DNA of 64,000 nucleotides from Buxus sempervirens (Eukaryota > Streptophyta > Magnoliopsida > Buxales > Buxaceae), in assembly GCA_947561395.2 (NCBI GenBank), contig OX387187.1, forward strand, positions 42,763,253 through 42,827,252. The letters are read 5' to 3'. A program made the translations under genes and the position numbers. The first letter of the stretch is position 1; every line of letters begins with the position of its first letter. Of this stretch, positions 33,365-63,160 are shown piece by piece. The notes below the pieces were generated by a model, which was not told where the DNA came from, did no database searches, and was given only the letters and a program-made list of their open reading frames with translations.

Positions 33365-35174
33365 TGTGAGACATGGGAAAAAATCAATTTAAATGATTTC
33401 CTCAATCATCACGCGGGATTAAATTAAACAAAGAGTCGCCACCATTCAATCTAGGTGTGAATGGACACCAAAATAGTAAATAAGCACAAAAGGCAAATTT
33501 TAGGGCAAAATATCCCTCCTAAAAAAAACAACCAGAGATGGGTAAGGGGATTAAGTTATGAACAGGGGAAGGTGTTAGGCACCCCTATTCATCCACACAA
33601 GGTGGTTGCCAGGTATTTGTTCATGTTAAAATAAAGGAAAAAGCTTGCTATAAAAATCAGGAAAAATCACAAAAAGACAAAAATATATGGTTTTTTCATA
33701 CGAACATTCTGATTGATCCAGAACTTTCAAATATGATCATACCATTCCTAGGGTTTCATGATCAAAATAAAATCAAGATAAAATCAAATAAAATCAATTT
33801 AAAGTGAAAAATCCAAAAATCTGGCTTCAAGTCAAAATTCTAGAAATCTAGAAAAATATGATTTTTATAAAATATTTCAAAATTGAACTTGAATAGTCCA
33901 GGACATAGATAAGGCCCAAATTTCACATTAAATCTGAAAATCAAAACCAAAAATACCCACGTTTATGAAAAACACCAAAAGGGGAGAATTTAGACCGTAG
34001 GGTCTTCTCTCAATAATGAAAAACAATTTAAAAATCATCTCATGAAACCCTAGAATTTATTTTCAGGCTTCTGGATTCAGATCTACCATATTGATCATGA
34101 TAAATCCAAGATCCTAGCCTAAACTCACAAAATTCACGAAAACAGTGCTGTAGGTGCAAAAGTGGCAAAAATCCAATTTTTATCAAAAAGTGGGGATCTC
34201 ATGCTATAAACATCATAGATTCATGTCATTCATTCAAATATATCATAAAAAGCATTAAAACATGATCAGGATATTCAAAACAACCACATCTCACAAATTA
34301 GAGCACATGGGGGTCTACCCTACGGATCCACCTGTTCTCTTTTCCCCTAGTTCTCTCTTCACGTTTTACGGCTAGAGAGACTCTTGAGGTACTTGGAGAT
34401 AGGTTTGGTTACACAAACACAATCAGAGGCTTTATTCTAAAAGAAAAAGAAAAAAACAGATATGGGGTTCTATTCTAGGGATCCACCTGTTCCCCTTTCC
34501 CCTAGTTCTCTCTTCACGTTTTACGGCTAGAGAGACCCTTGAGGTACTTAGAGACAAGTTTAGGAATACAAAAACAGATATGGCCTTATTCTACAGCAAT
34601 AGAGATGATCCTATTACTTCTAGAATTGAAGACAGAAAATAAAAAAGGATAGGGGACTTACCTGGATTGAGCAGGCAGAGCAGCAGGGATTCCTTTCCTT
34701 CTCTTGGAGCTTTTGATTCTTCAAAATTTCGTGGCCCTTAGCTAGAGGAATGAGCCACTATTTATAGACACACCCAGGGGCATGGTTGGTCCAGAAGGAT
34801 ATAGTCTGGTCTTTAGGATAGAGTGAAATACAGAGATAATGCCCATCCATAGCCAACCAAGGTGGCTTCAGCGAATAAAACACTTAATTCGCTCGTTTAA
34901 AGATATATTGGACTTCAAATAAAGCTCGGAAATCGAGAGAAGGACAAAACTTGCACGTGTCTTTAATGCCCGTAAATGATTTACGGTCCAATGGTGACCG
35001 TATTGGTACTACGGGCGCGCCTGCCCGTAGATATTTTGCGGGCGAGATCGGCCCGTGAAGAAAATACGGGCAAAGCCTGTTCATTCTATTTTTAGGCCTT
35101 TTTGACCTGTTTTAAGCTCTAATTATAGGTTTTTATTATTTTCTCATTTGGCAGTGCAATTTGGGGTGTCTACA
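33365..35174 (-). mobile_element. 3' LTR of element A
   Basis: On the minus strand it runs TGTAGACACCCCAAATTGC to CCCATGTCTCACA, 1810 bp. No matching 5-bp duplication lies on its right side; a polypurine tract does, so it is the 3' LTR of a minus-strand element whose body extends to the right (35,175-47,356 and, beyond element B, outside the window). The TATA box is at 34,758-34,767 (minus). The last ~280 bp (GGATGAATAGGGGTGCCTAAC) are shared with the LTR of element B; the U3 is not. Confidence 0.85.
34968..35071 (-). repeat. CCGTA/TACGG array in U3 of element A
   Basis: About eight half-sites (GCCCGTA, TTACGG, CCGTA, TACGGGC, GCCCGTA, GCGGGC, GCCCGT, TACGGGC) alternate in orientation with 6-9 bp spacers. 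The array lies about 100-205 bp from the LTR start and some 200 bp upstream of the TATA box. Four of the half-sites are perfect. The same motif recurs at 35,524 and 40,183, in front of the antisense genes. Confidence 0.85.
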
Positions 35175-35188
35175 GCTGCCCCCTCTTT
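35175..35188 (-). other. Polypurine tract of element A
   Basis: AAAGAGGGGGCAG on the minus strand ends one base before the LTR start TGTAGACACC. It is the normal priming site for plus-strand DNA synthesis in LTR retrotransposons and fixes element A on the minus strand. Confidence 0.75.
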
Positions 35189-37067
35189 GCTGGTAATTGG
35201 AACCAATTACAAGCAGAGAGCAAAAAGACCCACCAATTGCACTTTCTGAGATTTTTGTATAATCAATTGCACTTTGCAAGGATTAAATGGTTGATTTTTG
35301 AAAAAAGAATTGATTGTGGAAGATTTGTTAAGAAATCCCTCAGCTTAAGGGCCAAATCTTCCTCTCTCCTCTCACTGAGCACTTGTGGGCTATGAAGTGA
35401 GATTTGAGACAAAATTTTTAAACAAAAGTAGGTAAGGTGGCAATCCTTGCAACTTACAACTAATACAAACATTAATCTCCTAAAAATTGTGAGAAAATGA
35501 TAAAATATGCAATTTTTGGCTTCGCCCGTATTGTGCTTACGGACAGACCCTGCCCGTAGAGGATTCACGGGCGACCGGGACCGTAGTGTTTTCACGGGCG
35601 TCTGATGCCCGTACTGATGTTACGGATTTTACTCTTCTTCTTAAGCTCGCGACCGCGACCATTTCTCTTCTGCTCGCACTGTGCCCTAATTCTCTGCTGC
35701 CCGTATTCTTCTCTCCGGTTTCTCTCTTCTTCTTCAACAGTACCCAAGCTCTATCTCCGGCGACCACAGTTCTCCGGCGACTCTCTCCCACCGGCGACGA
35801 CTTGCTCATTCCGGCGACTGTTCCCATTTCAGACGACCACAATACCTTCAGCAACCATCGACTGTTCCTGGATTTGAGCATATCCGTGGCCTTGATCAAT
35901 TCTTTGGAGTGTTTCCTCTTCTATCAATCGACTGTGGATATTCCTTGAAGTTCCAGTGGAGTAAGAATTCCTCATTTGTTTCCTCCATTTTAACTATACC
36001 AAGTAAGTGGTCGAAACCTCTCTCTGAAGAATGTATGCAACAGTAGAACCCATGAACGAAATTTTTGTTCTTGATTGAATCAACTGTTTACTTTGTCTTC
36101 CTTAACCGGATTTGATTCGAAATTTCTAATCTCTTGAATTCTGGAATGATTAAACTCTCCAACATTGGTTTGTGCATCATTGTGACCTGCTGATTTTTCT
36201 TATAGCCGAAATGATGCTTGCATTTTTCTGACTCTTGAATGATTCATTCTTAATCTGTGATGTTTACTGATTGTTGACTTTAGTTTGTCACCCAGCATGC
36301 TTTCATCAGATTTGTGATTCCTCTTTGCCATTGTTAAATTGAGCTCTTTTATGACTTGTGTTGCTCCAATTTTTCTGCCAATGCTCCATCCGAACTTAAG
36401 CCTTTTGAATCCTCAAATTTTTGCTGCCTTGTTCAACACTGTATGATTCTATGACCCCAAATACATGATGCTTTGACTAAGTCTTAAAATTGCTGGGTGT
36501 ATTTACTGTTGCATCATTCTGATTTTGATTCTTGAATGGGAATTCTTATCTTTGATTTTTGTCTTGGTTGAATTCCTGTTTTTAAGCCACATTCCGCAAA
36601 TGCCTCATTTCCCTGCACATTGTTGAGGCTTGAACATGTTCAGTGTGGGATAAGTATAAGCTCTCAATCTAGTATACCCTTTTTGTGAGAATATTCCATC
36701 CCATTGCTTTGGCATGAATCAACTGCCTTGCTTGCCCTGAAACCAAATACAACACATGGTTAAATATATTTGGAAAATACAAAGGAATCAATATCCACAC
36801 ATTTTTCTTGTCATATAAAGAGAACATTCAAGAAGCAATGCATTTCTTATATAATTTTTCTATATACAAAGGCACATAAAATATCTTAAGACAAAAATGA
36901 ACTCCTTCAGTTTAATCTTTGATTTGATTGGGAGCTTCTGAAACACTTTTTCCATTCTCCATTTTTTTCTTTTTCCCTGTCAATCAATTAAACCCGGTTA
37001 GAATGATTAATCAATCAACTTAAAAATTTAAATAAATAATTAATCATCTCCCTGATTTGAACCGTAG
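35189..37067 (+). promoter_or_regulatory. Upstream region of aORF1 in element A, with CCGTA/TACGG array
   Basis: The array at 35,524-35,625 has about eight half-sites (GCCCGTA, TTACGG, GCCCGTA, ACGGGC, CCGTA, ACGGGC, GCCCGTA, TACGG). A C/T-rich stretch with an open frame of 120 codons follows (35,586-35,948), and then about 1.1 kb of ordinary T-rich sequence up to the ATG at 37,068. A 5' leader with an intron is likely, since GGAGTAAGAA at about 35,957 and the AACCGTAG just before the ATG would serve as donor and acceptor; this is inference. No TATA box is evident. Confidence 0.5.
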
Positions 37068-39975
37068 ATGGCCCGCCTTAGATCGACTTCCCGAGATCCT
37101 GCAGATGAGCCTTCCTCCTCGAGGGTTAGGCGAGATCCTGCTGTTGTGGCCTCGTCTTCGAGGGCCGAGAGGGATTCTGATTCTGATATCCCAGATTTCC
37201 CTTCTGGGGATTCGCGTGAGGCGACCCCAGAGGTATTCTCTAACCCTTCAGAATTTAACATTCTTTTACAAAAACATCTCCTTGATCCTTTCTTCTTTCC
37301 AATTGTTCCTTTAGCCGGCAGTTGAGGCTTCAGGCAGAGATAGGAGCCGTAGCAGGCGTCGAGCTGGAGGCAGATATGTGGGCCATGATGAGGGCCGTAG
37401 AGGAGGCCGCAGAGGGGGCCGTGGCAGAGATGAGGCTAGGACCAGGGTTGAGATCCCTGAGGAGGTGGCTGCCCAGATTAGGGACACCGATCTTTTGCAT
37501 GGCTTGAGGACTCATCCCTCAGCATGCGTTAGGGCGGATATCCCTTTGGAGTATCCGATGTCCCATTATAGAGGGAGCTGGGCCAGCTTCACTAGATTTT
37601 TGAGAGCTTGCAGTTCGGCCTATCGTCGGGAGCTAGGCTTATACGGTTTCGGCATGTTTATCACTATCCCGGACGTTCGCTTGGATCGAGCCCTCATTGC
37701 AGCATTATTGGAGAGGTTTTTTCCAGAGACATTGAGCTTCCACTTCCCAGATATAGAGATTGGGATCCGGCCTTCTGATTTCACGCTCATCACCGGGATT
37801 AGGATGATCGGTGATGTTATTACTGAGATGGCGATGCCAGAGGCTGATGAGATTGCTGGTTATCTTGGATATATTGTGCTGCCTCCAGAGGCCTGGGATC
37901 GGGGGAGAGCTAGATTGTCTCTGACATGGTTGAGAGAGACTTTTGGGAGGAGGCAGTTTGGCCAGCTTGCTGCCGGTGACCATGTTTTCCCATTTGCCTT
38001 CCGATTCCTCTTTCTGTATATGATGGGATCCTGCTTCTTCCCAGAGGACACGACTTCAGTTAGTCCTCACTTCTTGAGTCTTCTGGGAGATCTGCAGCGG
38101 GCGAGGAGGTATGCATGGGGCCCTCTCATATTTGGTACTATTTTGGCTGGCCTTCGCCGATCAGTGAGTGGCCTCTCTACTTCCAGAGGGGCTGGAGTTG
38201 GGTGCAGGTTCTTCTGGCCCTTCTTGCAGGTGAACCTTATTTCTCTTCTTTTTCTTTATCTCTTTCTTTTTATCTCTCATTTTCTATTCTTCTGACTATT
38301 TTCTTCTTTCTTGCAGTTTTTTGCTAGGGTTTATATACCCTATTTCCGCCCTACCTCTACGATGCCTGAGGAGACGTATCCCATGGCACTTAGATGGTGT
38401 CATGTAGAGCACGACTCTGAAAAGAGTCGTCCCAGGTCCGCCCGGGCCCACTTAGACAGGTTATACCGGTAGGAGGTAATCTTCTTTAATTCCTCTACTT
38501 CTTCTTTTCTTTTCTTCCTGGATCGCATATCTGATGTCCTGTTCTGTTTTTCAGCTATTTGTCCCCAGGATGGAGGACATTCATGAGGTGCTGGCCCTGC
38601 AAGCAGCCAGAGATGATGCATTTGTCCCTGACCAGAGACGACAGAGATACCAGTTCTTTATTGGTCAGCTGGGCAGCATTTGGTACTGCGGCGAGCGCTT
38701 CTTCTTTCAGCATGTGGGAGAGCCGCGGATCCCTGCCATCCCGCCAGATACTACTCCTTTCTATCCTCCTATGCCTGTTGATCCTGCCCAGTTCTTAGAT
38801 TGGACTGAGGCAGAGACATTATTAGAGGAGGGTGACTATGATGCCTGGTTCAGGCGAGCTTCTGTTGGGTGCCTCATGTCACCCATGCCTGTCCGTGGCG
38901 GAGTCACGGAGATAGGAGGGGTAGTGATTAGGGCCTACGACACCACGGTATGCCTTCTTCCTTTTCTGATCTTCTATTTCTATTTCATTAGCATTTTTCT
39001 GACTTCTTTCTTTGCTATTTCAGGAGGCTCAATTGGCAGAGATCAGGTCTCGCTATGCTGATTTAGAGCACCAGCGTGATGCTGCGATCGCTGAGCGGGA
39101 CGCCCTCTATATCACTATTTCAGATCTCCGGGGGCAGCTAGCCAGAGCCCAGGGCCAGGAGGGTCCATCTGATGTACATGATCAGGCGGGTCCATCTGAT
39201 GCACAGGACCAGGCGGGTGCACAGGACCAGGCGGGTCCATCTGATACTCAGGTTAATTTCTTCTTTTATTTCCATTCCTGCTTTTGTATTTGTTTGTCTT
39301 GTTCTGACTGAATTTTTCTCTTAGTTTCAGGAGTACACAGCCGGCCCCTCTTCACCTGCTTCACCCGTGCCTATGCATTTCCGGGATGAGGTGTTTTCTG
39401 TGGCACGGGTGGAGTTCGTGACGTCTCCTAGTCCAGTGGAGGTTCCTGCAGCAGAGCCCGAGGTCGAGGCTGATATTGTACCTGCTGTTGAGGACATGCC
39501 AGAGTCTGCCCCAGTAGCTGAGACTGCTCCTGCTGCATCTGCTGATGTAGATATGGATTCGGCTATGGACGCCGCTGTGGTAGAGCCTACCGTGGAGACT
39601 GCGGTGATGGAGGAGGCTACAGCTGATCCTGTAGAGCCTGGGGTTGATGCTGATGTACCTGAGACCTCTGCCCCTGCTAGTCCTGCTATGGAGGATATCG
39701 AGGAGACGCATGCTGCTGTGGATACGTCAGCGGAGTCTTCTCGTACTGATTCTGATGTAGATACTTCAGGGTACGTCCCTCCTGATCATCCTACTGCTGG
39801 CCTTGTACCTTTATATATGTGGCATGATATTCAGTCTGTTTTGAGCAGGATGCCGCGTAGCACAGCCCGCAATGTTGTGCGGCATGTCTTTGAGCGCAGG
39901 CGATCTTCAGGCCGAGGTCGAAGCAGAGGACGAGGCCGTGGCAGTGGGGGCGGACCTGCATGGTCATTAGATTAG
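37068..39975 (+). pseudogene. aORF1 of element A: PMD gene with six exons, one in-frame stop
   Basis: Proposed exons: 37,068-37,232; 37,315-38,229; 38,317-38,475; 38,555-38,947; 39,024-39,251; 39,331-39,975. All introns are GT...AG and phase 0, and together they give 834 codons. Residues 62-92 are Arg/Gly-rich. Residues ~140-345 form a plant mobile domain (WASFTRFLRACS, TLSFHFPDIEIGIRPSDFTL, FRFLFLYMMGSCFFPED, RRYAWGPLIFG). A DQAGPSD repeat, an acidic Ala/Glu/Pro-rich region and a C-terminal GRGRSRGRGRGSGGG follow. TAG at 38,470-38,472, just before the exon-3 donor, interrupts the frame (CAG expected); an alternative donor at 38,469 avoids the stop but breaks phase. The gene lies antisense to its host element, which explains how its introns survive retrotransposition. 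Nuclear, nucleic-acid-related function is likely by analogy to MAIN/MAIL1. Confidence 0.75.
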
Positions 39976-40461
39976 GATTATTCATATACACTTGTATTTT
40001 TGACAAAAGTGATGTAAACATTCTCATATATATATAAAAGAAATTTAATTTTCATTCATTTGTGCTCTTTTCTTCTTTATTTTCAGTATTTATTACCTGA
40101 TGAATGTTAAAAGAGGGACAGGTGAAGCTTAGAAAACTAAGGAAATTAAAAATTCCCATTTTTTTGCATTTTTTCGAAGGAACCGTATTTATACTACGAG
40201 CAGGCTGTGACCGTAAACTTACTACGGGCGCACTCTGCCCGTGAATTTTCTACGGGCACACTCTGCCCGTGAAGTTTTCACGGTCAGGCGTGTCCGTAGT
40301 TCCTATACGGGAGTGCTTTGCCCGTAGTATAATTACGGAATTTACTGGCTTACGATTTTTTCTATATAAACTCCTAGGGAGCGTCATTGTGACACTTTTA
40401 TTAATTGAAAAACTCCCTGAGCACGTCTTTTCTCGCTTTCCTTGGCTTCTTTGGTGCTTCC
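39976..40461 (+). promoter_or_regulatory. aORF2 promoter in element A: CCGTA/TACGG array plus TATA box
   Basis: The array at 40,183-40,338 is the longest of its kind in the window, with about a dozen half-sites alternating CCGTA and TACGG in 7-9 bp steps. It ends 24 bp before the TATA box CTATATAAAC (40,362-40,371), which is 91 bp upstream of the aORF2 ATG (40,462). Upstream, 39,976-40,180 is the aORF1 3' region (TATATATAAAAGAAA at about 40,027). The same array/TATA/ATG spacing occurs in element B at 62,890-63,160. Confidence 0.8.
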
Positions 40462-42249
40462 ATGGCTTCCCCTACGTCGCTTTCTCCTGCCGTTGAATCT
40501 CCTCCTGCAAGACAACCTGTTAGATCAAAACCTCCTAATCTTACCAGGTACAATATTGTGGATTCCTTTTATGATAGATGGGTTAACTCCATGACCCTTG
40601 ATGAGGAGATTCGTTGGGATTCCATCCACTTAGGGCACATCCTACACCTCCCTAAAATTCCCTTTAAGTGGGAAATCATTGAAGCTTTGATTGGCCACTG
40701 GGTACCTGAGCTGAATCTCTTCCGTTTTGATGACAAAGAGATGACTCCCACCATAGAAGAGATTGAAACCATCCTTGGCCTAAGATTTTCTGAAAAAGTT
40801 GTGAACCCACCCCTAAAGCTTAGTTATAAAAAAGAGGCCTCCACTTTCTTGGGTATAGGGAAGAAGGACTTAGGAAATTCTGATGCCCTATTGACCTTGT
40901 CCAAGACTTTTTTGACTGAAAAACTTCTGAGGAGTAATGACAAGGACTCTAGGTTTAATGCATTGACCCTGGTAGTGGTCAATCAGCTGCTTTTTCCACG
41001 GGGTGATGACCAGGTTGACTTGGCTCTCATCTAAGTTATTTGCCAGGTTAGGGAATGCAAGAGGTTGGCCCCTATGATCCTAGCAGAGATATATCAGGCC
41101 CTTACTGACTGTTATTTCAGGAAGAAGAAACGCTTCCTTGCCTGCGCCCCTATCCTACAGGTAAAAAATATGCATATTTTTTTCTTTTCTCTTTTTCTTT
41201 TTTTTTTTTTTTTTCTTTCCTTCTTTTTTTTTCTTCTTCTTTTTCTTCTCTCTGCTTCTTCTTCTTCTCTTTTTTCTTCTCTCTCTCTCTCTCTTTTTTT
41301 TTCTTCTTTTTTTTCTCTTTTTGGAAATAAATTGAAATACTCCCTTTTTCTGCAGCTTTGGTTGCTTGACCATCTTAGCCAGGTTGAAGAAATAACTCGC
41401 CGCTTCTTTCCACGATTGAAAGTTCCTGTTTTGATGAGCAATAGGGGATGTCCTAACATCCAAGGTGGCAAGCAAGGCTGGTTCACTTTCTTGGGTACTC
41501 TCCAGGATGATCAAGTGAGATGGCCTGGCACTTATCAGCCTACTCCAGAGACAGTGATTAGCTTTAGGGATAAAAACTTTCTGGCCCTAGCAGGCTTGAA
41601 ATCTGCTGTTCTCTATCTTCCTTTGGGGGTTATTCGGCAATTTGGAGCGACCCAGGGAATTATGATCCCCACAGGTTATGAGAGCTTTGTAGGGCCACTT
41701 ACCTCAGCCACCATGGGGCTAAATGCTCAATTAATGAAAGAGTGGTCCTATGTTTGCTTTCTGCGGGGTCCAGTCTTTTCAGAGTCCCATGTGAAGGACT
41801 ATCATTTCTGGATCAAAGAACAGGTGCAGAGTCATGCCCCAGTACCCGAGGATCCTCCTACAGTTCTTCCTCCTACCTATGAAGATATTCTGGAGTCAGA
41901 AAGGGCAACCCATAAACGTCTTCAACAAATATGGGTACGGGAGGCTCAAGAACTTAGGATAAAAGTCCTTGTTCTGGAGAGGAAACTTGAAGAGCAGAAG
42001 TCTGGCCGCATTGCCATGGAGAAGAAACTTGAAGAACAAAGGCAGGCTCGTCGCTTTGAAGTCCGAGTGATGCGGAAGAAGTATCAGGATTCCTTGGCTG
42101 ACCTTAGGGCGTTGAAGAGCAAGCTTTCTTTTTCAGATGAGGTCATCTCCTTTTTGAGTGATCCTGATGCAGAGGGTGCTTCTGGAATCATTGCAACTCA
42201 GGCAGCTAGGATTAGGGAGCTTGAGGAGCAGTTAGGGAGTAGGGATTAG
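40462..42249 (+). pseudogene. aORF2 of element A: DUF7745/PMD-like protein with coiled coil, one stop
   Basis: Exon 1 is 40,462-41,160 and exon 2 is 41,356-42,249, with a phase-0 GT...AG intron that is T-rich. The full frame would be 530 residues. Residues ~35-125 carry the family core (NLTRYNIVDSFYDRWVNSM, PFKWEIIEALIGHWVPELN, FRFDDKEMTPTIEEIETIL). The last ~130 residues are a charged coiled coil (ERKLEEQ, RRFEVRVMRKKYQDSLADL) ending ARIRELEEQLGSRD. TAA at 41,032-41,034 interrupts codon 191 where element B has Ser. The ATG at 40,462 is chosen because it lies 91 bp behind a TATA box and matches the B start by position. It converges with pol, the two 3' ends being about 900 bp apart. Proteins of this type are common in plant genomes; their role is not established. 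Confidence 0.75.
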
Positions 42250-47356: not shown

Positions 47357-47446
47357 TGTAGACACCCCAAATTGCACAAACAATCATCAAAAATCATTAT
47401 CTCCTGGAAAGCCAGCACAGAATTTGAAGAAAATATACTTTTACCT

Positions 47447-47588
47447 GTATCCGGATACTCAATCCGGATACAAGTACTCTTTCCCGTATCCGGATACTCA
47501 TACCGGATACGTGTGAGCCTTAGCGTATCCGGTACCATGTACCGGATACCTTAAGGCCCTTTGTTATCCGGTCTGATGTACCGGATAC
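47447..47588 (+). repeat. ATCCGG/CCGGAT inverted-repeat array in U3 of element B
   Basis: About nine half-sites GTATCCGG or CCGGATAC alternate: GTATCCGGATAC, TCCGGATAC, GTATCCGGATAC, ACCGGATAC, GTATCCGGTACC, TACCGGATACC, TTATCCGG, TACCGGATACC. The array lies about 90-230 bp from the LTR start and about 155 bp upstream of the TATA box, the same place as the CCGTA/TACGG array of family A. Confidence 0.85.
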
Positions 47589-47743
47589 CTTAAGTTTGCT
47601 CAAAATTAGGGTTTTCCGAGAGCTTTTCACTTTTACCATCATGTCCCTCATTAAATGAGGGGAAATCGCGGAAATAACCTTAGGGTTTAGGTTGGAGTGG
47701 TTCTAGACATTAAGTTGTGTCTACCAATGACCTTAGCCCTTGC

Positions 47744-51021: not shown

Positions 51022-51162
51022 TAACCGGCAACTCAGGCCGGTTAATAACAATCCTGTTCATATCCGGTATATATTTCCGGATAAAAAGGCATATGCGTGA
51101 ATCCGGTTATGGTAACCGGATACAATAAGGCATATTATTATCCGGAATGTTATACCGGATAC
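51022..51162 (+). repeat. ATCCGG/CCGGAT array in the leader of element B
   Basis: Half-sites TAACCGG, GGCCGGTTA, TATCCGG, TTCCGGATA, AATCCGGTTA, TAACCGGATAC, TATCCGGAA, TACCGGATAC alternate with spacers of 7-25 bp. It is the same motif as in the LTR (47,447) and in front of aORF2 (63,020). It lies 1.75 kb upstream of the gag start. Confidence 0.8.
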
Positions 51163-52735: not shown

Positions 52736-52844
52736 AAAAAAAACAAAAAAAAAAAAAAATCTGGATTGGTGTTCACCTAACCTACTGGTTTACATATATA
52801 GGGGTGTGACTCAAGTTAAATGGAAACTAACATGTTCTATTCAT

Positions 52845-52919: not shown

Positions 52920-55900
52920 ATGAATCCTGAAGAGAACCAAGCCCAAGCTACTGTCCCCGCTCAGGACTTCACTCAACTGCAGGAGCAAGTGGCCGGTCTG
53001 GCCAAGATGCTGGGGGACTTATTGGCGGCGCAGGCCCAACAGGCCCAAGCCCAAAACCAGGCCTCTACCTCCCATCAGGCACCACCACCTCAGGCCTACA
53101 TACCGCCTCCGGTTCAGCCCATGCCTGAGCCCATTTCTGAACCGGTCCCTGAGCCCATTCTGATCAGGGAAAATACAGCTGAGTCTGAGAAAGAGTTGGA
53201 GAAAGAAAAGGCCCGAGATAAGATGGAGAAGAAAATGCTGCTGAGGATAGAGAGGATCCAGGCAGAGCTGAAAGAAGTGAAGAGGGGAGGCAGCCATGCA
53301 GGCACCACCTTCGAGGACCTGTGCATGTACCCGGACGTCTGTCTACCGGCTAAGTTCAGGTGCCCGGATTTTGACAAGTTTGATGGCACGGGCTGCCCAT
53401 TGAGCCATCTCAAATTATACTGCGGGGCCCTGTGCCAATTTGGCCGGGACGATGGAATACTGATCCAGCTCTTCCAAAGGAGTCTAACCGGGTCAGCCCT
53501 TCGGTGGTTCGCTACAGTGGACCATGGAAGGATTAGGAGGTGGAAGGACCTAGCAGACGCTTTCTTGGACCAGTACAAGTTCAACTCGGAGATCGTGCCG
53601 GACCGGTACGACATGATGAGGATGACCAAGGGGAAGGATGAACCGGTGCGGCAATACGCCAAGAGGTGGAGAGAGGCCGCCTCCCAGGTCAGGCCACCTA
53701 TGCAAGAGCCGGAGATGATCTCCACCTTTATGGGCACACTAGGGCAGCCCTTTTACAACCATCTGGTGGGCCAGATCACCACCAACTTTACAGCCCTGGT
53801 GCAGGTGGCTGACCGGATCGAAGAAGGGGTCAGGTCAGGAAGGCTGATAGACTACTCTACTCTGACTGGGCAGTCTGATTCCTCTGACTCTATGGCCCAG
53901 AAGAAAGGGGCCGGGTTCAAAAAGACGGGGGCCCGAAAAGAAGCGGAGGTGAACCTGGTCCAGGCTCCTCCAGTCAAGAAGCCACTGCACGTCAACATCT
54001 CGGCACCCCAACAGGCCCAGCAGGCCCAGCAGTCGTACCAGACCCCGCTGAATGTCAACTTCTCTCCTTCTGTGCCAGCTAACACAAGGAGGACCTTTAC
54101 TAAGGAGGAGCGGGATGCCTGGTTCGCAGCAAGGAAGAACCGGGTTTTCACCCCTCTACCAATATCTCTTTCCCAACTATTGCCAACCCTGCTAAAGGGT
54201 GAATACTTGACTCTGAAGGAGCCTAACCCAAATGCCACCAGGGGGAGAAATTTTGACACATCGGTCACCTGTGATTTCCACATGGGTGCCCCGGGGCATT
54301 CTACTGATACCTGCTGGGTGTTAAAGCATGCAGTCCAGGACCTGTTGGACCAGAAGGCGTTGGTCTTTAACACTGCTGCACCCGCCCCGTCGGGAAATGA
54401 TATTGGGCAGAACCCTCTGCCGTACCACAATGGGGCAGGCCCATCCAACTCCATCACTGCCATATCCACCACCAAAAGGGCCTTTGACCCATCACAGCTC
54501 ATAGCCCCTGTGGGGACCACAGTCCAGGTCCGATTTTTCCCAGAGGAGGAAGAGGAGGAGATCAACATGGTCTCCCAAAAAAACAATCTTGCTGCTGAGG
54601 ACATAAGCTCCTCCTTAAACCGGGTCTCTTCTCTGATGGCCCAGATAAATACTGCAAGGCCCCCATTGGTCTTCAATTGCAGTCCACCCATTTACTCCCC
54701 ATCCAAGCCGTCTAAGGCTCCACTGGTCATCAATCTTGACCCCACCACTGCTTCCATCACTTCTTCTGTCCCCACCAAATCCAAACTTCAACCCCTGGTT
54801 GTAAATGTGCAGCCGGCCCATGCTATCCCTAAACCGGCCCATACATCCCGGTCCAGACTCCAGCCATTAGTGGTTAACATCCCTAAATTAGCCTATTCAG
54901 AGGCCGCTGTACCATGGAATTACAGCGAGGGAATCACGGCTACGGTTCCAATGGTCAAGGACCAGAACCAGGAGGAGGTGAACCTCATGACGAGGTCGGG
55001 GAGATGTGCAGGGGGTGAAGAGAAAGAAAAGGAGACAGAGGTAGAAAAAGAAAAAACAGAAAAAGAAAATGAAGAAAAAAGAAAACAGAAGGGAAAAAAT
55101 AAAATAGGAGAAGACACCTCCCAGGGTGCAGAAAATGAGGCAGCAGACCTCATAAAAATAATAAAAAAGAGTGAATTCAATCTTGTGGATCAGCTAAACA
55201 AGGTCCCGGCCCAGATTTCAATACTGGGCCTTTTGCTGAATTCTGAAAAGCATAGGGATGCATTGTTAAGGGTGCTACAGAGTGCACACGTATCCCGGAC
55301 CATTGATCCAGACCAGCTTGGTAAAATGGTTGGTCTAATCTTGTCACATAATGTGATAAGTTTCTCAGAGGGTGAGATCAGCCCAGGTGGGTGTTATCAT
55401 GTGGACCCTTTGCACATCACTGTGCTTTGTAAGGGCTGCATGGTTGCACGGGTTTTAATTGACAACGGGTCAGCGTTAAACGTTTGCCCGTTAATCACTT
55501 TTACCAAGCTGGGTCTGGACCAGTCAAGGATAAAACGGAATGGGCGGATAGTGAGGGCTTTCGATAGCTCCAAGACCCACTCCCTAGGGGAGATTGAACT
55601 GCCGGTCACAATTGGGCCGAATATCTTTAACATCACATTTGAGGTGATGGATATACCCGCAGCCTTCAATCTGCTCCTAGGAAGGCCGTGGATACATTCG
55701 GCTAGGGCAATACCATCCACGCTCCACCAAAGGGTGAAATATGTAAGAGGGCAAAGGGTGATAACAGTCCTAGCTGAAAACTTGGTGCCACCCATTGTGT
55801 CACCTGATGTACCCTTGATCAATGTGGACCTAACTGTCGACAAGATTGCATTCCACTCATTTCAATTTGAGGCGGTCAATTACATACCTGGGGGGTGTGA

Positions 55901-56630
55901 GAAAAAGAAGGAAAAGGGGACCACTGCAGAAAAGATGGTCAAGAAAGTGATGGAGAAATACCACTTTCACCCAGGGAAAGGCCTGGGGATCAATCTGCAG
56001 GGGATGGTTGAGCCAATCACGGCTAAGAAACTGATCCCCAAAGTAGGGTTGGGCTTCAAGCCCAGAGGCTGGAGAAGAATGAAACATGAAGAAGGGGAGA
56101 GCAGAAGCAAAGGAAAACTCCCACATCTGAGGGTGAACTTTCCAAAACCCGCTTATATAATCCAAATTTCTCCTCCTATGGACCAATCAAAACCTCCCTA
56201 CTACAATGTCAACCCATTTCAAAAGCCTTCTGTTTCGGCCCTACAACCCTATAACCCATCTCCAATACTGGGAGCAGTGGATGGGCCTGGACCACAGCCC
56301 GAGCAGCAGGTGGACTTTTCTGAAAATGTTGGGGCCTTCTTCGCCATGATTGAAGGCGAAAAGACAAGGGCAGACATGGAACTGCCATTTATTGACTGGG
56401 CCGCAGTAAAGGTTCCAGACAAGGTCATTTCTGGATTGGGCCCCGTAGCAGAAAAGGGCAGTACCCACCCGGTGATGATGGCATCGGATTCTGGGTTTGA
56501 AGAGCAGGCTTTCCCTATTTCCCCTGCTCCCCAAAATTTTGTACTGAACAATTGGGAGGAAACTCCCCTTACTTTTGAAGCAGCGTTAGTTCGGCAAACT
56601 GACGCGGCTTCCAAAAAAAAACTCCAATAG
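52920..56630 (+). CDS. gag-protease polyprotein of element B, with G-patch
   Basis: 1236 codons, uninterrupted. Residues ~15-50 are a Gln/Ala-rich coil. Residues ~145-315 are a Ty3-type gag domain (KFRCPDFDKFDGTGCPLSHL, GSALRWFATV, WKDLADAFLDQYKFN). A C-x2-H...H-x4-C knuckle-like motif (CDFHMGAPGHSTDTC) lies at ~450-465. A Lys/Glu-rich stretch follows at ~700. An aspartic protease has DNGSALNV (Asp at residue 848) and LLLGRPWIHSARAI. A G-patch lies at ~1010-1055 (GKGLGINLQG, GLGFKPRGW). The tail (PPYYNVNPFQKP, DFSENVGAFFAM) ends SKKKLQ and TAG directly after an A9 run. It forms the particle and processes the polyprotein. It is probably functional as far as the frame shows. Confidence 0.9.
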   Translation: MNPEENQAQATVPAQDFTQLQEQVAGLAKMLGDLLAAQAQQAQAQNQASTSHQAPPPQAYIPPPVQPMPEPISEPVPEPILIRENTAESEKELEKEKARDKMEKKMLLRIERIQAELKEVKRGGSHAGTTFEDLCMYPDVCLPAKFRCPDFDKFDGTGCPLSHLKLYCGALCQFGRDDGILIQLFQRSLTGSALRWFATVDHGRIRRWKDLADAFLDQYKFNSEIVPDRYDMMRMTKGKDEPVRQYAKRWREAASQVRPPMQEPEMISTFMGTLGQPFYNHLVGQITTNFTALVQVADRIEEGVRSGRLIDYSTLTGQSDSSDSMAQKKGAGFKKTGARKEAEVNLVQAPPVKKPLHVNISAPQQAQQAQQSYQTPLNVNFSPSVPANTRRTFTKEERDAWFAARKNRVFTPLPISLSQLLPTLLKGEYLTLKEPNPNATRGRNFDTSVTCDFHMGAPGHSTDTCWVLKHAVQDLLDQKALVFNTAAPAPSGNDIGQNPLPYHNGAGPSNSITAISTTKRAFDPSQLIAPVGTTVQVRFFPEEEEEEINMVSQKNNLAAEDISSSLNRVSSLMAQINTARPPLVFNCSPPIYSPSKPSKAPLVINLDPTTASITSSVPTKSKLQPLVVNVQPAHAIPKPAHTSRSRLQPLVVNIPKLAYSEAAVPWNYSEGITATVPMVKDQNQEEVNLMTRSGRCAGGEEKEKETEVEKEKTEKENEEKRKQKGKNKIGEDTSQGAENEAADLIKIIKKSEFNLVDQLNKVPAQISILGLLLNSEKHRDALLRVLQSAHVSRTIDPDQLGKMVGLILSHNVISFSEGEISPGGCYHVDPLHITVLCKGCMVARVLIDNGSALNVCPLITFTKLGLDQSRIKRNGRIVRAFDSSKTHSLGEIELPVTIGPNIFNITFEVMDIPAAFNLLLGRPWIHSARAIPSTLHQRVKYVRGQRVITVLAENLVPPIVSPDVPLINVDLTVDKIAFHSFQFEAVNYIPGGCEKKKEKGTTAEKMVKKVMEKYHFHPGKGLGINLQGMVEPITAKKLIPKVGLGFKPRGWRRMKHEEGESRSKGKLPHLRVNFPKPAYIIQISPPMDQSKPPYYNVNPFQKPSVSALQPYNPSPILGAVDGPGPQPEQQVDFSENVGAFFAMIEGEKTRADMELPFIDWAAVKVPDKVISGLGPVAEKGSTHPVMMASDSGFEEQAFPISPAPQNFVLNNWEETPLTFEAALVRQTDAASKKKLQ

Positions 56631-59600
56631 TGGATTGCCATTTCCCTGAAGGTTCTAATGGGCCTTCGTCTTCAGGGGAATTATGTTTAGAAGGCCCACA
56701 AAAAACCCAAAAAGATTTTTCTATTTTTTCTAGAAAATTTAATTTTTTCAAAAAGGTCCAAACCACTTATGAGCCATATAATCAGACCGAATTGGACCAA
56801 GTTGAATATGACTTCGACCTGGAGCTCGACTTTGATCTCATGGGGGTCGAAGAAGAGACCGAGGTCGAAGAAGAAGACGTTCCAAAAGAAATTGAATACC
56901 AATTGGAACGTCATGAAAAGGGGGTCCAACCTAATATTGAGGAGACCATATCCATAAATCTTGGGACCGAAGAGGACCCAAAAATTGTGAAAATCGGGTC
57001 ATGCTTGTCTGATGTGCAGAAAAATGAAATGTCACAGTTCTTGGCAGATTACAAGGATGTGTTTGCTTGGTCATATCGGGACATGCCGGGGTTGGACACT
57101 GACATGGTGGTGCACAAGTTGCCAATTTTGCCAGGGGTTAAGCCGATCAAGCAGAAGCTGAGAAGATTGAAACCTGAGTGGACTCTGAAGGTCAAGGATG
57201 AAGTGGTCAAACAGTTCCAAGCTGGATTTTTGGCAGTCTCTACGTACCCGGAGTGGCTCGCAAACATAGTGCCGGTACCAAAGAAGGACGGGAAGGTCCG
57301 AATGTGCGTGGACTATAGAGACTTGAACAGGGCAAGCCCAAAGGACGATTTTCCGCTTCCACACATCGACATTCTGGTCGATAATACTGCGGTACATAGC
57401 CTGTTCTCTTTCATGGATGGCTTCTCGGGATATAATCAGATCAAGATGGCTAAGGAGGATCAAGAAAAAACAGCTTTTATCACACCTTGGGGCACATTCC
57501 ACTACACGGTCATGCCGTTTGGGCTCAAGAACGCTGGGGCAACATATCAGCGGGCCATGACTGCACTATTTCATGACATGATCCACAAAGAGATGGAAGT
57601 CTACGTGGACGATATGATTGCCAAATCATGCAAAGAGGAGGACCACTTGATCAATCTGAAGAAAGTGTTTGATCGGCTCAGGAAATACAGTCTACGGCTT
57701 AACCCGGCGAAGTGCGTCTTTGGGGCTACATCAGGGAAATTGCTTGGGTTTATAGTGAGCCGAAGAGGAATCGAAATTGACCCGGCAAAAGCCAAGGCCA
57801 TAATTGAAATGCCAGCACCCCGAACCGAGAAGGAGGTCAGGGGCTTTCTTGGAAGGATTCAATACATAAGCCGGTTCATAGCACAGCTCACTGCTATCTG
57901 TGAACCAATTTTCAAACTTTTGAGGAAAGATAACCCGACTGTCTGGAATGAGGACTGCCAACAGGCATTTGATACAATAAAGAGGTATTTACTGAACCCG
58001 CCGGTACTAGTGCCACCAACTCCAGGAAGACCACTGATCCTGTACTTGTCAGTGTTGGAAACGTCAATGGGATGTGTCTTGGGGCAGCATGATGAGACTG
58101 GTAGAAAAGAAAGGGCAATTTACTATCTGAGTAAAAAATTCACGGAATATGAAGCCAAGTACTCACCATTGGAGAAGACTTGCTGTGCTCTAGTGTGGGC
58201 AACTCAGAGGCTAAGGCATTACTTCCTTAGTCACTCCACACTATTGATATCCCGGATGGACCCGCTGAAATATTTATTTGAGAAACCGGCACTGACTGGC
58301 AGAACGGCAAAGTGGCAACTACTATTGTCCGAGTTTGACCTCACATACATCACCCAGAAGGCGATCAAGGGTCAAGCCATAGCTGATCACCTGGCTGCAC
58401 ATCCTTTGCCAGAATATCAACCCTTGAAGACCAACTTCCCAGATGAGGCAATTCTGTACACTGAAGAGGAAGACAGTGAGAGTTCTTGGCAGATGTTCTT
58501 TGATGGAGCCGCCAATATGAATGGGAACGGAATAGGGGCAGTCTTGGTCAAACCAGATGGTTCACACATCCCGATTGCAGTAAAGCTGAGATTCCAGTGC
58601 ACCAATAACATAGCAGAATATGAAGCATGCATAATTGGATTGCAAGCAGCCATGGATCATGGAGTAGAGGAACTTGACGTATACGGGGATTCGAGTCTTA
58701 TCATCTTCCAAACAACTGGTGAGTGGAAAACCAAGGATCACAAATTGATCCCCTATCACCAGTATTTGGAAGAAATAAGCACAAATTTCACTCGAATTTC
58801 CTTCAACTATATGCCAAGGGCCAAGAATCAGTTTGCGGATGCTCTAGCAACCTTGGCTTCAATGGTCAGCATATCAGAAGGAGTAGACATCAGACCGCTG
58901 GAAATTGAAGTCCGAGATGAACCGGCTTACTGTCTCATTCTAGAGGGAGCACCAGAAGAAGAAACACCATGGTTTCAGGATATCAAGAACTTCTTGAATA
59001 ATCGGAGTTTGCCAGAAAATGCCACTGCTACTGAGAAGAGGACAATACAGAGATTGGCTGGTCAATTTCTGCTAAGTGGTGGACATGTGTACAAGAGGTC
59101 ACATAATGACATTCTGCTAAGATGTGTTGCCAAGGCGGAATCGGAAAGGCTGATTGAGACTGTACATGGAGGAGTCTGTGGGCCTCATATGAGTGGACAC
59201 ATGCTGGCTAAGAAGATCCTGAGGCTGGGATACTACTGGACAACCATGGAGCATGATTGCTGTATACATGTCAGGAGGTGCCACCAATGCCAGATATATG
59301 CAGATAATAAGCATGCACCCCCAGGTGAGCTGCACAACATGACATCACCCTGGCCCTTCTCTATGTGGGGCATAGATGTCATCGGCATGATCTCCCCTAA
59401 GGCATCGAACGGTCACAGATTCATCTTGGTGGCAATTGATTATTTCACTAAATGGGTGGAAGCAGCATCATATGCAAATATCACAAGCAACCATGTGATC
59501 AAATTTTTGAAGCACAACATTATTTGTCGCTATGGACTGCCAAGTGCCATAGTATCAGACAATGCTTCAAATATTAAGAACAAGGACATGAAGAAAATGT

Positions 59601-60217
59601 GTGAGCAGTTTCAGATCACCCACCATAAGTCAGCTCCGTACAGGCCAAAGATGAATGGAGCAGTAGAAGCAGCAAACAAAAACATAAAGAAAATCATTCA
59701 GAAGATGGTAGTGAGCTATAAAGATTGGCATGAAATGCTGCCACTTGCTCTACATGCCTACAGAACCTCGATCCGGACTTCAACTGGGGCAACCCCATAC
59801 TCCCTAGTCTATGGGATGGAAGCAGTCTTGCCCGTGGAAGTAGAAATCCCGTCACTCCGAGTGCTCATGGAAGCAGAACTAGAAGAAGCTGAATGGGTCC
59901 AGTCGAGACATGATCAACTTAACCTGATAGAAGAAAAGCGATTGAAAGCGCTTTGCCATGGACAGTTGTACCAGAGGAGAATGGCCCGGGCTTACAATAA
60001 GAAAGTGAGGCCCAGAACTTTCCAAGAAGGAAACCTAGTGCTAAAGAAAATTCTACCATTTTTGGAAGATCCTCGTGGTAAGTTCAAGCCCAATTGGGAA
60101 GGCCCATATGTCGTCAAAAAAGTACTGTCAGGGGGTGCACTCATCTTAGCAGAAATGGATGGGTCAGATTTTCCTGAGCCCATTAACTCTGATGCAGTAA
60201 AAAGGTATTTTCCTTGA
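56612..60217 (+). CDS. pol of element B: reverse transcriptase, two RNase H domains, integrase
   Basis: About 1200 codons, open throughout, entered from the frameshift run. Numbering from 56,630: an acidic linker (50-110); RT (~165-345) with PVPKKDGKVRMCVDYRDLNR and YVDD at 325; a Ty3 RNase H with LYLSVLETS where a catalytic Asp is expected (~471), hence degenerate; a second RNase H (~620-745) with FFDGAANMNG (Asp 625), EYEACIIGLQ and DALATLAS. Integrase follows: HHCC finger (HMSGHML...CHQC), D916 (WGIDVIG), D977 (SDNASN) and E1013 (GAVEAANK), D-D-35-E spacing; C-terminal NWEGPYVVKK. Two RNase H domains are typical of the plant Tat group. All catalytic residues except those of the first RNase H are present, so B may be autonomous. 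Confidence 0.93.
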   Translation, partial: QKKTPIVDCHFPEGSNGPSSSGELCLEGPQKTQKDFSIFSRKFNFFKKVQTTYEPYNQTELDQVEYDFDLELDFDLMGVEEETEVEEEDVPKEIEYQLERHEKGVQPNIEETISINLGTEEDPKIVKIGSCLSDVQKNEMSQFLADYKDVFAWSYRDMPGLDTDMVVHKLPILPGVKPIKQKLRRLKPEWTLKVKDEVVKQFQAGFLAVSTYPEWLANIVPVPKKDGKVRMCVDYRDLNRASPKDDFPLPHIDILVDNTAVHSLFSFMDGFSGYNQIKMAKEDQEKTAFITPWGTFHYTVMPFGLKNAGATYQRAMTALFHDMIHKEMEVYVDDMIAKSCKEEDHLINLKKVFDRLRKYSLRLNPAKCVFGATSGKLLGFIVSRRGIEIDPAKAKAIIEMPAPRTEKEVRGFLGRIQYISRFIAQLTAICEPIFKLLRKDNPTVWNEDCQQAFDTIKRYLLNPPVLVPPTPGRPLILYLSVLETSMGCVLGQHDETGRKERAIYYLSKKFTEYEAKYSPLEKTCCALVWATQRLRHYFLSHSTLLISRMDPLKYLFEKPALTGRTAKWQLLLSEFDLTYITQKAIKGQAIADHLAAHPLPEYQPLKTNFPDEAILYTEEEDSESSWQMFFDGAANMNGNGIGAVLVKPDGSHIPIAVKLRFQCTNNIAEYEACIIGLQAAMDHGVEELDVYGDSSLIIFQTTGEWKTKDHKLIPYHQYLEEISTNFTRISFNYMPRAKNQFADALATLASMVSISEGVDIRPLEIEVRDEPAYCLILEGAPEEETPWFQDIKNFLNNRSLPENATATEKRTIQRLAGQFLLSGGHVYKRSHNDILLRCVAKAESERLIETVHGGVCGPHMSGHMLAKKILRLGYYWTTMEHDCCIHVRRCHQCQIYADNKHAPPGELHNMTSPWPFSMWGIDVIGMISPKASNGHRFILVAIDYFTKWVEAASYANITSNHVIKFLKHNIICRYGLPSAIVSDNASNIKNKDMKKMCEQFQITHHKSAPYRPKMNGAVEAANKNIKKIIQKMVVSYKDWHEMLPLALHAYRTSIRTSTGATPYSLVYGMEAVLPVEVEIPSLRVLMEAELEEAEWVQSRHDQLNLIEEKRLKALCHGQLYQRRMARAYNKKVRPRTFQEGNLVLKKILPFLEDPRGKFKPNWEGPYVVKKVLSGGALILAEMDGSDFPEPINSDAVKRYFP
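56613..56621 (+). promoter_or_regulatory. -1 ribosomal frameshift site between gag-pro and pol, element B
   Basis: In the gag-pro frame the codons are TCC AAA AAA AAA CTC CAA TAG. Slipping back one base on A AAA AAA gives AAA AAA ACT CCA and continues into pol. The pol frame is open through the run. Element A has the same run and the same distance to its stop. An intron, as known between protease and RT in Ogre elements, is the alternative, but no donor/acceptor pair is needed here. Confidence 0.7.
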
Positions 60218-61156: not shown

Positions 61157-62058
61157 CTAGTCTCCTAGCCGCTCCTCAAGCTCCCGAATCCGAGCTGCCT
61201 GAGCTGCAATGACTCCTGAAGCCCCCTCTGCAGCAGGATCACTCAGGAAGGAAATGACCTCATCTGAAAAGGCCTGCTGGATCCTCATACTCCTAAGGCT
61301 GGCCAAAGTATCCTGGTACTTCTGCCGGATCATACGGACCTCGAAGCGACGGGCCTGCCTCTGCTCCTCCAGCTTCTCTTCCACGGCAATACGGCGTGAG
61401 GTCTGCTCATCAAGCTGCCTCTCCAGATAAGCACTCTGTATCCTGAGCTCCTGGGCCTCCCGTACCCATATCTGCTGAAGCCGCTTATGAGAAGCCCGCT
61501 CAGACTCTAGAATGTCCTCATAGATGGGAGCTAAGACTACAGGAGGATCTTCGGGTACTGGGGCCTGAGTCTGTATCTGTTCCTTGATAATCCTTCACAT
61601 GGGTTTCCGAGAAGACGGGACCATGCATAAAGCGGACATAAGACCACTCCTTCATCAACCAGGCATTCAGCTTCATAGAAAGAGGCCCAAGACGATCCTC
61701 GTATCCATATGGGATGATAATCCCCTGGGTCGCTCGGAACTGACGAAGGACCCGCAGAGGAAGATACAACACTGCATGCTTCAGGCCCGCTAGGATCAGA
61801 AAGTTGCGGTCACGGAAGCTAATTACTGTCTCTGCATTAGGCTGATAAGTACCAGGCCATCTCACCTGGTCATCCTGAAGCGAGCCCAAGAAGGTGAACC
61901 AGCCCTGTTTGCCCCCTGGAATATCGGGGCACCCCCTGTTGCTCATCAACAAAGGGACTTTCAGACTCGGGAAGAAGTGTCGATTGATCTCTTCAATCTG
62001 GCTCAAATGATCAAGTAGCCAAAGCTGCAAAGGAAGAGAGAGGTGTCAGCACATTGTA

Positions 62059-62105
<47 letters not shown>

Positions 62106-62889
62106 AAAAAAGGCAAAAAGAAGGCCAAAAAGCAAGAAAAAAGAAAAAGAGAAAAAGAAAGAAAAAAAAAAACTTGTTTACCTGCAGGATCTGGGCACAT
62201 GCTAAGAAGCGTTTCGACTTCCTGTTGTAGCAGTCAGTCAAGGCCTGATATATCCCAGCTAAAATCATAGGGGCCAACCTCTCCCGCTCCCTGACCTGGC
62301 AGATCACAGAAATCAAGGCCAAGTCCACCTCGTCATCCTCCCGAGGGAAAAGCAACTGGTTGACCACTATCAGGGTCAACGCGTTGAATCGGGCCTCCTT
62401 ATCTTCTCCCCTCAAAAGCTTCTCAGTCAAAAAAGCCTTAGATAGAGTCAAAAGGGTGTCAGAATCCCCCAAGTCCTTCTTCCCTATGCCCAAAAAAGTA
62501 GAAGCTTCCTTCTTGTAACTGGGCCTAAGAGGTGGATTCACCACCTTCTCATCAAACCTCAGGCCCAGGATGGTTTCCACCTCTTCAATGGTTGGGGTCA
62601 TCTCATGGGTCCCAAAACGGAACAAGTTGAGATCGGGAACCCAATGACCAATCATGGCCTCTATAATCTCCCACTTGAAGGGAACCTTGGGAATAAGCAG
62701 GGTATGGCCTAGGTTAGTAGTACCCCATCTCCTCTCCTCATCTAGGGTCATAGAGTTAACCCACCTGGTGTAAAAGGAATCCACAGGGTTGTACCTAGTG
62801 AGATTTGGGGGTTTTGATCTAAAAGGCTGTTTTGCAGGGGAGGCAGTGTGGACAGACAATAATGGGGCAGAAGATGATCCGGATTCCAT
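61157..62889 (-). pseudogene. aORF2 of element B: DUF7745/PMD-like protein, frameshifted
   Basis: Exon 1 is 62,182-62,889 and exon 2 is 61,157-62,024 (minus), with a phase-0 GT...AG intron at the same place as in element A. Exon 1 is open: SKPPNLTRYNPVDSFYTRWV, PFKWEIIEAMIGHWVPDLN, MTPTIEEVETILGLRF, and past A's stop LALISVICQ. Exon 2 is shifted near 61,583-61,589: A has TATCATTTCTGGATCAAAG where B has TATCAAGG, an 11-bp deletion between two ATCA copies. After it the coiled coil resumes in another frame (RRFEVRMIRQKYQDTLASL) and ends ARIRELEERLGD, TAG. ATG at 62,889 is chosen by TATA distance (about 110 bp); a longer frame from 62,982 is possible. Exon 1 protein is close to A's, so the protein was selected until recently. 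Confidence 0.75.
62061..62103 (-). repeat. Poly(A)/poly(T) run of about 43 bp in the aORF2 intron
   Basis: An uninterrupted A run on the plus strand is a T run on the coding strand of aORF2, next to its 3' splice site (acceptor at 62,025). Element A has an interrupted T/C-rich stretch in the same intron. The length probably varies between individuals and may be an assembly weak point. Confidence 0.8.
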
Positions 62890-63160
62890 TGGATTTGACG
62901 GGAGCAAGCTAGAACTCAAGAGGAGGAAGAAAAAGGCGAAAAAGGGGGTTTCTAAACTCAAAAACTCGTAAAAAATGCCCAAATCCCGAGATTGGTTGCA
63001 TTTATAGCATCTTTTAACATATCCGGTAACTCAGACCGGATACAAAGGCTTTGGTAATATCCGGATAAGTATACCGGATACAAAGGATTCCATGAATATC
63101 CGGTATAACATACCGGATACAAAGACCAATCCATGTATCCGGTATGTCAGACCGGATACC
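62890..63160 (-). promoter_or_regulatory. aORF2 promoter in element B: ATCCGG/CCGGAT array plus TATA box
   Basis: TATA box CTATAAATGC lies on the minus strand at 62,998-63,007. Directly upstream (63,020-63,160) are four clean inverted pairs ATCCGGTAACTCAGACCGGAT-like with 7-8 bp spacers: TATCCGG/ACCGGATAC, TATCCGG/ACCGGATAC, TATCCGG/ACCGGATAC, TATCCGG/ACCGGATACC. The pairs are spaced about 35-40 bp. Layout equals that of element A (40,183-40,371) with a different motif. Confidence 0.85.

Follow-up and report, generated by a model that had tools for sequence, protein, structure and literature searches.

Two nested Ogre-like elements and their dyad arrays

The stretch of the Buxus sempervirens genome described here (64,000 nucleotides of contig OX387187.1, hereafter the window) holds the 3' part of one long terminal repeat (LTR) retrotransposon, element A, on the minus strand and most of another, element B, on the plus strand. 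Element B sits inside element A, inserted at about 47,356, upstream of A pol. Both elements carry extra antisense open reading frames (aORF1 and aORF2), and both carry arrays of a short inverted repeat with a CCG core in their LTRs and at the promoters of these antisense genes. The arrays, and a one-letter switch shared by every half-site of two homologous array pairs, are the subject of this analysis. The genes and landmarks of the two elements are:

33,350-35,174, minus strand: 3' LTR of element A, starting with TGTAGACACC at 35,174 when read on the minus strand; left end approximate
37,068-39,975, plus strand: element A aORF1, a plant mobile domain (PMD) protein gene of several exons, antisense to pol (PF10536, E = 4.6e-18; limits set by eye and by comparison)
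40,462-42,249, plus strand: element A aORF2, DUF7745/PMD, antisense (PF24924, E = 2.8e-12 and 9.4e-7)
43,157-46,783, minus strand: element A pol, with reverse transcriptase (RT), RNase H, a second RNase H-like domain and integrase (Pfam)
47,356-49,633, plus strand: 5' LTR of element B; right end read by eye
49,636, plus strand: primer binding site of element B, TGGCGACTC
52,920-60,217, plus strand: gag ORF (with G-patch) and pol ORF of element B (Pfam)
61,163-62,889, minus strand: element B aORF2, DUF7745/PMD, antisense (PF10536, Pfam)

Pfam recognises RVT_1, RT_RNaseH, RVT_3 and rve in both A and B, and Retrotrans_gag in B; the aORF1 of B lies just beyond the window and matches PF10536 at 3.4e-14. 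The gene order, RT-RNase H-integrase, is of the Ty3 type. A and B are LTR retrotransposons, without the character of MULE DNA transposons, and they are best called Ogre-like Tat elements because of their PMD ORF, second RNase H-like domain, size, gene order and primer site, which we take to be of the tRNA-Arg type. Over the bases compared, the 5' and 3' LTRs of element B are identical (1,485/1,485), which makes B a very young insertion. Its aORF2 has a single reading-frame shift relative to A, and that of A has one in-frame stop relative to its relatives, so aORF2 is broken in both window copies, in B although the element is very young. PMD (pfam10536) has been reported in 57% of Ogre elements (PMC6317226; this and the other papers cited are drawn on for their accessible sections).

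The unit common to all six arrays named in A and B is the dyad CCG-N11-CGG. The arrays are placed as follows:

34,970-35,069, minus strand: U3 of the element A 3' LTR, 4 dyads, period 28/27 bp; right half of the third dyad degenerate past CGG
35,526-35,625, plus strand: element A aORF1 promoter, 4 dyads CCGTA-N7-TACGG, same period as in A U3
40,183-40,338, plus strand: element A aORF2 promoter, 6 dyads; right half of the first degenerate
47,448-47,588, plus strand: element B U3, 4 dyads TATCCGG-N9-CCGGATA, period 39 bp
51,025-51,158, plus strand: element B gag leader, 4 dyads, period 39 bp; weaker flanks on the first
63,020-63,160, minus strand: element B aORF2 promoter, 4 dyads, period 39/38 bp

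The dyad of element A, CCGTA-N7-TACGG, recurs with a period of 28 (27) bp and is built from the half-site CCGT(A/G), usually with GC in front; CCG and CGG alternate about every 14 bp, also between dyads. That of element B, TATCCGG-N9-CCGGATA, recurs every 39 bp (38 once), with 13 bp from CCGG to CCGG inside a dyad and 26 bp (25 once) between dyads. Spacers vary and half-sites are almost constant, as tabulated for 12 of the 14 A dyads and 12 of the 12 B dyads, the A dyads at 35,025 and 40,183 being omitted for their degenerate right halves. A first-pass annotation of the same letters had placed six arrays of alternating half-sites in the two elements. All six are present, far above shuffled and reversed controls, and the paired half-sites keep a fixed geometry (N7 in A, N9 in B) around free spacers, a layout still more regular than the one it had given. 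The window contains 37 CCG-N11-CGG dyads, compared with 1.9 +/- 1.3 in 60 dinucleotide shuffles of its 64,000 nt, and the densest 170 bp of any shuffle held at most one. Counted by eye, 33 of the 37 stand in arrays and 4 are isolated.

The arrays keep company with promoters. The TATA box of the A LTR (34,766, minus strand) lies about 203 bp downstream of the A U3 array, and that of the B LTR (47,745) about 157 bp downstream of the B U3 array. For aORF2 the annotated distances were borne out: a TATA box at 40,363 stands 24 bp beyond the A array, and the array said to lie right upstream of the B box is 13 bp from 63,006 (minus strand). No TATAAA, TATATA or TATTTA occurs within 850 bp of the aORF1 arrays (in element A, downstream of 35,526-35,625). 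An array at the B aORF1 promoter had been predicted from the idea of a shared signal, and the 5.6 kb fetched there, beyond the window, contain two strict B dyads (window-equivalent 67,115 and 67,154) upstream of the PMD gene; the same 5.6 kb also show the B 3' U3 array.

As inverted repeats, with one array in the gag leader, the dyads might be read as DNA or RNA structures, such as hairpins or signals for packaging or dimerisation in the leader. Their arms are only 5-7 bp long and their spacers are free, however, and the aORF2 arrays stand upstream of TATA boxes and thus probably outside the aORF2 transcript. The half-site letters also switch as those of a sequence motif would, as described below, and we regard a structural role as scarcely credible.

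Further arrays, absent from the first-pass annotation, were seen outside A and B. One belongs to another element and represents a third motif class within the window:

32,491-32,623, strand not assigned: ATAACCGAA-type dyads, three strict and one degenerate, period 39 bp

Decayed A-like arrays of 28-bp period occur at 10,815-10,903 and at about 31,450-31,540, the latter inside an LTR-like copy (30,000-31,661) related to the A LTR. Downstream of its dyad array, the leader of B holds a large array of 71-bp direct repeats (51,547-52,724).

A one-letter switch and the divergence of the antisense proteins

Homologous arrays of B type and of a related type, C, keep the core and the geometry and switch one letter throughout. 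The C-type leader array at C1:11586297-11586430 aligns with the B leader array over 134 positions, gap-free. Core letters are kept at 24/24 positions and the outer TAT at 15/18, the fourth letter is changed in 8/8 half-sites (G to A; C to T on the mirror side), and the remaining letters are identical at 57/84; shifted alignments match at no more than 39/133 positions. At the aORF2 promoter, a second C-type copy (L036) gives the same picture against B, with core and outer TAT each kept at 24/24 and the fourth letter changed in 8/8, while identity is 16/36 in the spacers, 35/64 in the linkers and 69/86 across the TATA box and 5' untranslated region. Taken together, the two array pairs show a symmetric G-to-A switch at 16/16 half-sites with 48/48 core letters kept. 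A C-type U3 (L043) has four CCGA dyads, the edge of one decayed, and next to its array lies a 62-bp stretch matching the B LTR at 93.5%. Core and geometry kept, with one letter switched throughout, speaks in our view more strongly than any other finding for a reader protein that has changed its specificity.

Could such arrays arise with no reader at all? They might be targets or products of silencing, either as CG/CHG-rich repeats that attract methylation or as repeats spread by slippage or gene conversion, and the sites do have a high CG and CCG content within repetitive DNA. On the other side, spacers differ between dyads while half-sites are nearly fixed, which slippage does not explain, and in both array pairs the switched letter is always the inner one, unlike the outcome of random deamination. 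We reject deamination as the cause of the change from CCGG to CCGA, because the inner letter alone changed and did so at every half-site. A silencing origin of the arrays seems to us very unlikely.

The first-pass annotation had taken pol and aORF2 of the two elements to be closely related and had suggested that motif and factor change in step. Between A and B, which differ in motif, pol is 91.5% identical and aORF2 77.3%, and it is aORF1, at 50.7%, that departs most. Between B and a same-motif relative, B2, identities are 97.9% for pol, 95.5% for aORF1 and 95.2% for aORF2; between A and L002, again of one motif, they are 94.5% for aORF1 (exons 3-4) and 92.6% for aORF2. Poisson distances were taken over the exons common to each pair, which for aORF1 are exons 2-4 (3-4 for A and L002), with exon 1 outside the comparison. 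The aORF1/aORF2 distance ratio is 0.96 and 0.74 in same-motif pairs and 2.64 and 2.44 in different-motif pairs, and the aORF1/pol ratio is 2.1 compared with 7.6 and 7.1; that of aORF2 to pol is 2.2 with the same motif and 2.9 with different motifs. The higher aORF1 ratios between motif classes make aORF1 a better candidate reader than aORF2. The motif itself switches concertedly at homologous arrays. That aORF1 changes in step with it is suggested by a few pairs and weakened by one control, given below; the residues of DUF7745, to which we return, lend it no support. Exons 5 and 6 of A aORF1 have no match in B. Among C-type copies, the aORF1 slot of L036 is occupied by a nested mini LTR element, and L043 shows no match to the A or B aORFs.

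Motif classes and mini elements in the host genome

Across the 676.5-Mb host genome we counted double dyads of four types, with the pattern read backwards as control. A-type double dyads number 13,704 (control 0), B-type 20,091 (control 1), CCGA-type 4,366 (control 5) and CCGC-type 2,212 (control 835). The matches listed for each search all lie on contig C1. Among them, by eye, CCGA has a 22-bp gap (period 39) in 48 of 50 plus-strand rows, and CCGC an 11-bp gap in 34 of 50 and a 21-bp gap in 11 of 50. The listed CCGC matches mostly read CCGCA...TGCGG, and TATCCGA as well as ATAACCGAA forms occur among the listed CCGA matches. Of the arrays seen, those with a 28-bp period are CCGTA or CCGCA and those of 39 bp mostly CCGG or CCGA. 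One locus, L019, was considered as a B LTR with a swapped A-type U3 and then dropped, the A-type arrays lying positionally inside an insertion in that LTR. A D-motif locus, L037, contains no ORF above 120 amino acids and no match to A or B.

The claim that the motif is shared within an element and differs between elements stands in its first part, with LTR, leader and antisense promoters alike. The motifs are not private, however, since the A motif and the B motif are each present in more than one related family. Among the B matches listed on C1, five groups on the plus strand are spaced like a complete element (U3, leader, aORF2, 3' U3), and in four of the five the aORF1 place is occupied as well; the places are named from their spacing, with sequence confirming one group (L038). 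The minus strand holds a sixth group, at C1 3,385,810-3,395,479, with rows at U3, the aORF1 place, leader and U3, and none at the aORF2 place among the matches listed; these six groups leave further B matches unassigned.

The dyads also occur in smaller relatives. The mini LTR element in L036/L044 (C1:19373081-19378756) has LTRs that are 95.9% identical and a primer site of the same type. It carries a DUF7745 gene in sense orientation, and its LTR contains a single strict D-type dyad; it has no match to A or B pol, and gag was not searched for. Four clades of such DUF7745 minis were read: D type (L044, L036), A type (L049 and L050, with 0.7 kb between them unread), B type (L048, L046) and a clade with a motif other than CCG (L047, L045). 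L051 ends short of its own U3, and the U3 of L053 is hidden by a nested A-type LTR. Between clades the mini proteins share 66-75% identity, and with the aORF2 of the Ogre-like elements 30-37%. DUF7745 gave 7,098 first-look candidates, of which 150 were scored, many with open frames of 495-516 amino acids. A further family, L039 (C1:7896600-7904400, around C1:7.90 Mb), shows A-type dyads in the LTRs, and its primer site is TGGCGACTC; the 7.8 kb read contain a gag ORF and no match to the A/B pol or PMD genes. By eye, the dyad spacers of L039 resemble those of the DUF7745 mini L049, as if partners had split the genes between them. Elements in which neither aORF1 nor aORF2 was found carry the same motifs, and an element-encoded factor would have to act in trans.

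The minis raise the possibility that the DUF7745/PMD protein of aORF2, or that of the minis themselves, is the specific factor and aORF1 an accessory. In the parts read, DUF7745 is the only recognised gene of these minis, and they carry D, B, A or non-CCG arrays according to protein clade. The mini sample, though, amounts to four clades with one U3 each, the D case being a single strict dyad, and the aORF2/pol ratio given above rises only from 2.2 to 2.9 between motif classes. Proteins of Ogre-like and mini elements with a common motif showed no surplus of concordant residues (1, against 2 discordant), so that DUF7745 as reader is unsupported by the residue test. We consider this assignment unlikely.

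Candidate readers, known parallels and significance

In the model that we propose, a dimeric, motif-specific factor recognises the arrays as clusters of its sites on all promoters of an Ogre-like element. Such a factor would act at once on the LTR, on the antisense genes and perhaps on the leader. It would probably be encoded by the element, most likely as the antisense PMD protein aORF1, which we favour because it departs more between motif classes and because its family appears to be distantly related to VANC. By binding, it would open or activate these promoters and work against silencing, and the aORF1 product would act in trans on the relatives in which no aORF1 was found. Judged from sequence, we give this model close to an even chance.

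The relation to VANC, offered by the first-pass annotation as a precedent, is an indirect one. DUF1985 is the domain of VANC proteins, which bind short motifs that are clustered and specific to the family (PMC5735166). Two proteins, at L040 and L042, match both PMD (1.7e-7 and 4.6e-7) and DUF1985 (1.2e-6 and 4.2e-6) on overlapping residues, all four matches being below the Pfam curated cut-offs. DUF1985 is also matched weakly by 30 of 42 PMD rows, mostly related soybean proteins (best 3.5e-4). No DUF1985 match was obtained with exon 2 of the window's own aORF1 or with B aORF2, so the link between PMD and DUF1985 runs through intermediates. PMD, DUF7745 and DUF1985 look like one superfamily. 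A Camellia relative, P0140, has an HMG box fused to PMD. An AlphaFold2 model of the PMD protein P0001 (42 rows) reached a mean predicted local distance difference test score (pLDDT) of 40.7 and was set aside.

Alternatively, the promoters may be driven by host transcription factors with a CCG core, each lineage being adapted to a different paralogue or condition. LOB-domain and other dimeric factors are examples of host factors of this kind. Elements in which no aORF1 was found keep their arrays, as a host factor would allow, and a parallel exists in Sireviruses, of the Ty1/copia superfamily. These place multi-copy palindromic boxes with a CGG-CCG core ahead of the LTR TATA box and also before an extra env-like gene, and the boxes vary by element (PMC2829016), an indication that sites of this sort are usable by a host factor. 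Repeated CGG-CCG boxes are thus already known, and geometry, superfamily and concerted switch are what differ here. In the accessible sections, Sirevirus boxes are compact palindromes with few bases between the arms, whereas the dyads of A and B, in elements with the Ty3 type of gene order, are CCG-N11-CGG with free spacers and 28- or 39-bp periods; those sections report neither a factor nor a switch at homologous arrays. All half-sites of two homologous array pairs share the switched letter with the core kept, and aORF1 departs more between motif classes, a point weakened by exons 5 and 6. A host factor alone would predict neither the aORF1 pattern nor so many coexisting motif types, and we place it on the unlikely side.

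Several observations besides the Sirevirus boxes tell against the proposed model. The distance comparison comprises two same-motif and two different-motif pairs, and the latter, A-B and A-B2, are tied together by the close kinship of B and B2. With exons 5 and 6 included, the A/L002 aORF1/aORF2 ratio climbs from 0.74 to 1.86, a sign that the 3' part of aORF1 changes fast regardless of motif. The residues of DUF7745, set against the motif across Ogre and mini lineages, gave 1 concordant and 2 discordant sites. DUF7745 minis carry CCG motifs with no aORF1 seen in them, and the L047/L045 clade has no CCG dyads and instead a direct AGGAGTTAG repeat before the TATA box, partly at a 28-bp step in L047 (C3:10155900-10157300). 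The CCGC class is just 2.6 times its control, a weaker excess than that of the other classes. Finally, CpG retention is not clearly different in the arrays and in the rest of the LTR (B, 38/44 in arrays and 134/152 outside; A, 44/48 and 46/57; 4 copies each); the copies had been chosen for intact arrays, and this biased test was set aside.

It is tempting to speculate further that Ogre-type LTR elements carry a VANC-like system of their own, in which aORF1 would bind the CCG-N11-CGG lattice and free the promoters from silencing. Specificity would move by one-letter changes fixed at every half-site, resulting in insulated families (CCGTA, CCGCA, TATCCGG, TATCCGA and ATAACCGAA), each trailed by parasites that keep the sites alone, or a DUF7745 gene with the sites. 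This fuller scenario is possible, and on balance doubtful.

The likeness to VANC and the VANDAL transposons has several sides (PMC5735166, PMC10398659). There, the element-encoded protein family is that of DUF1985, to which PMD is tied here indirectly, via intermediates; the short motifs lie in clusters within non-coding DNA, related elements differ both in motif and in protein, and an unrelated element, AT9TSD1, can share a motif. A short, family-specific motif clustered in non-coding regions is likewise found in the elements described here, more weakly for CCGC. VANDALs, however, are DNA transposons, whereas here the genes lie antisense in an LTR element. The VANC motifs given in those accounts, YAGTATTAY and AGTTGTCC or AGTTGTAC, are not CCG dyads, and are described as tandem repeats rather than as a fixed N11 dyad lattice.

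Other retrotransposons share parts of the picture. Ogre/Tat elements resemble A and B in their extra PMD ORFs, large size and non-coding regions, and the accessible account leaves the function of the extra ORFs open and makes no mention of element-specific dyad arrays (PMC6317226). Retand has an antisense ORF, TRP28, between pol and the 3' LTR, with predicted DNA binding, and tandem arrays in about half of its elements; TRP28 belongs to another protein family, and the arrays are not described, in the sections available, as dyads common to promoters (PMC11963269). Among host genes, the PMD proteins MAIN and MAIL1 are required for the expression of genes with a promoter motif and for transposable-element silencing (PMC7156037, PMC9899485). 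The DOWN motif, as quoted for MORC1 (CATGCAGTTT), lacks a CCG core, and binding of PMD to it is left open in the accessible text. Judged by titles and the openings of abstracts, no paper among those listed in a literature search, with subscription papers outside its scope, describes these arrays, the Sirevirus paper being nearest, and no accessible paper names both DUF1985 and the plant mobile domain.

The function of the antisense extra ORFs in Tat/Ogre elements is an open question, and a candidate DNA target for them lies in the element itself. With that target at hand and several natural variants of its specificity, the proposal is directly testable. If aORF1 does read the dyads, control of silencing that is sequence-specific and encoded by the element would reach from the VANDAL DNA transposons to a very large class of plant retrotransposons. 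PMD, DUF7745 and DUF1985 would then make up a single superfamily that regulates transposons, host genes such as MAIN and MAIL1 may have arisen from it, and the coexisting motifs would provide a natural series showing how such a protein changes its target.

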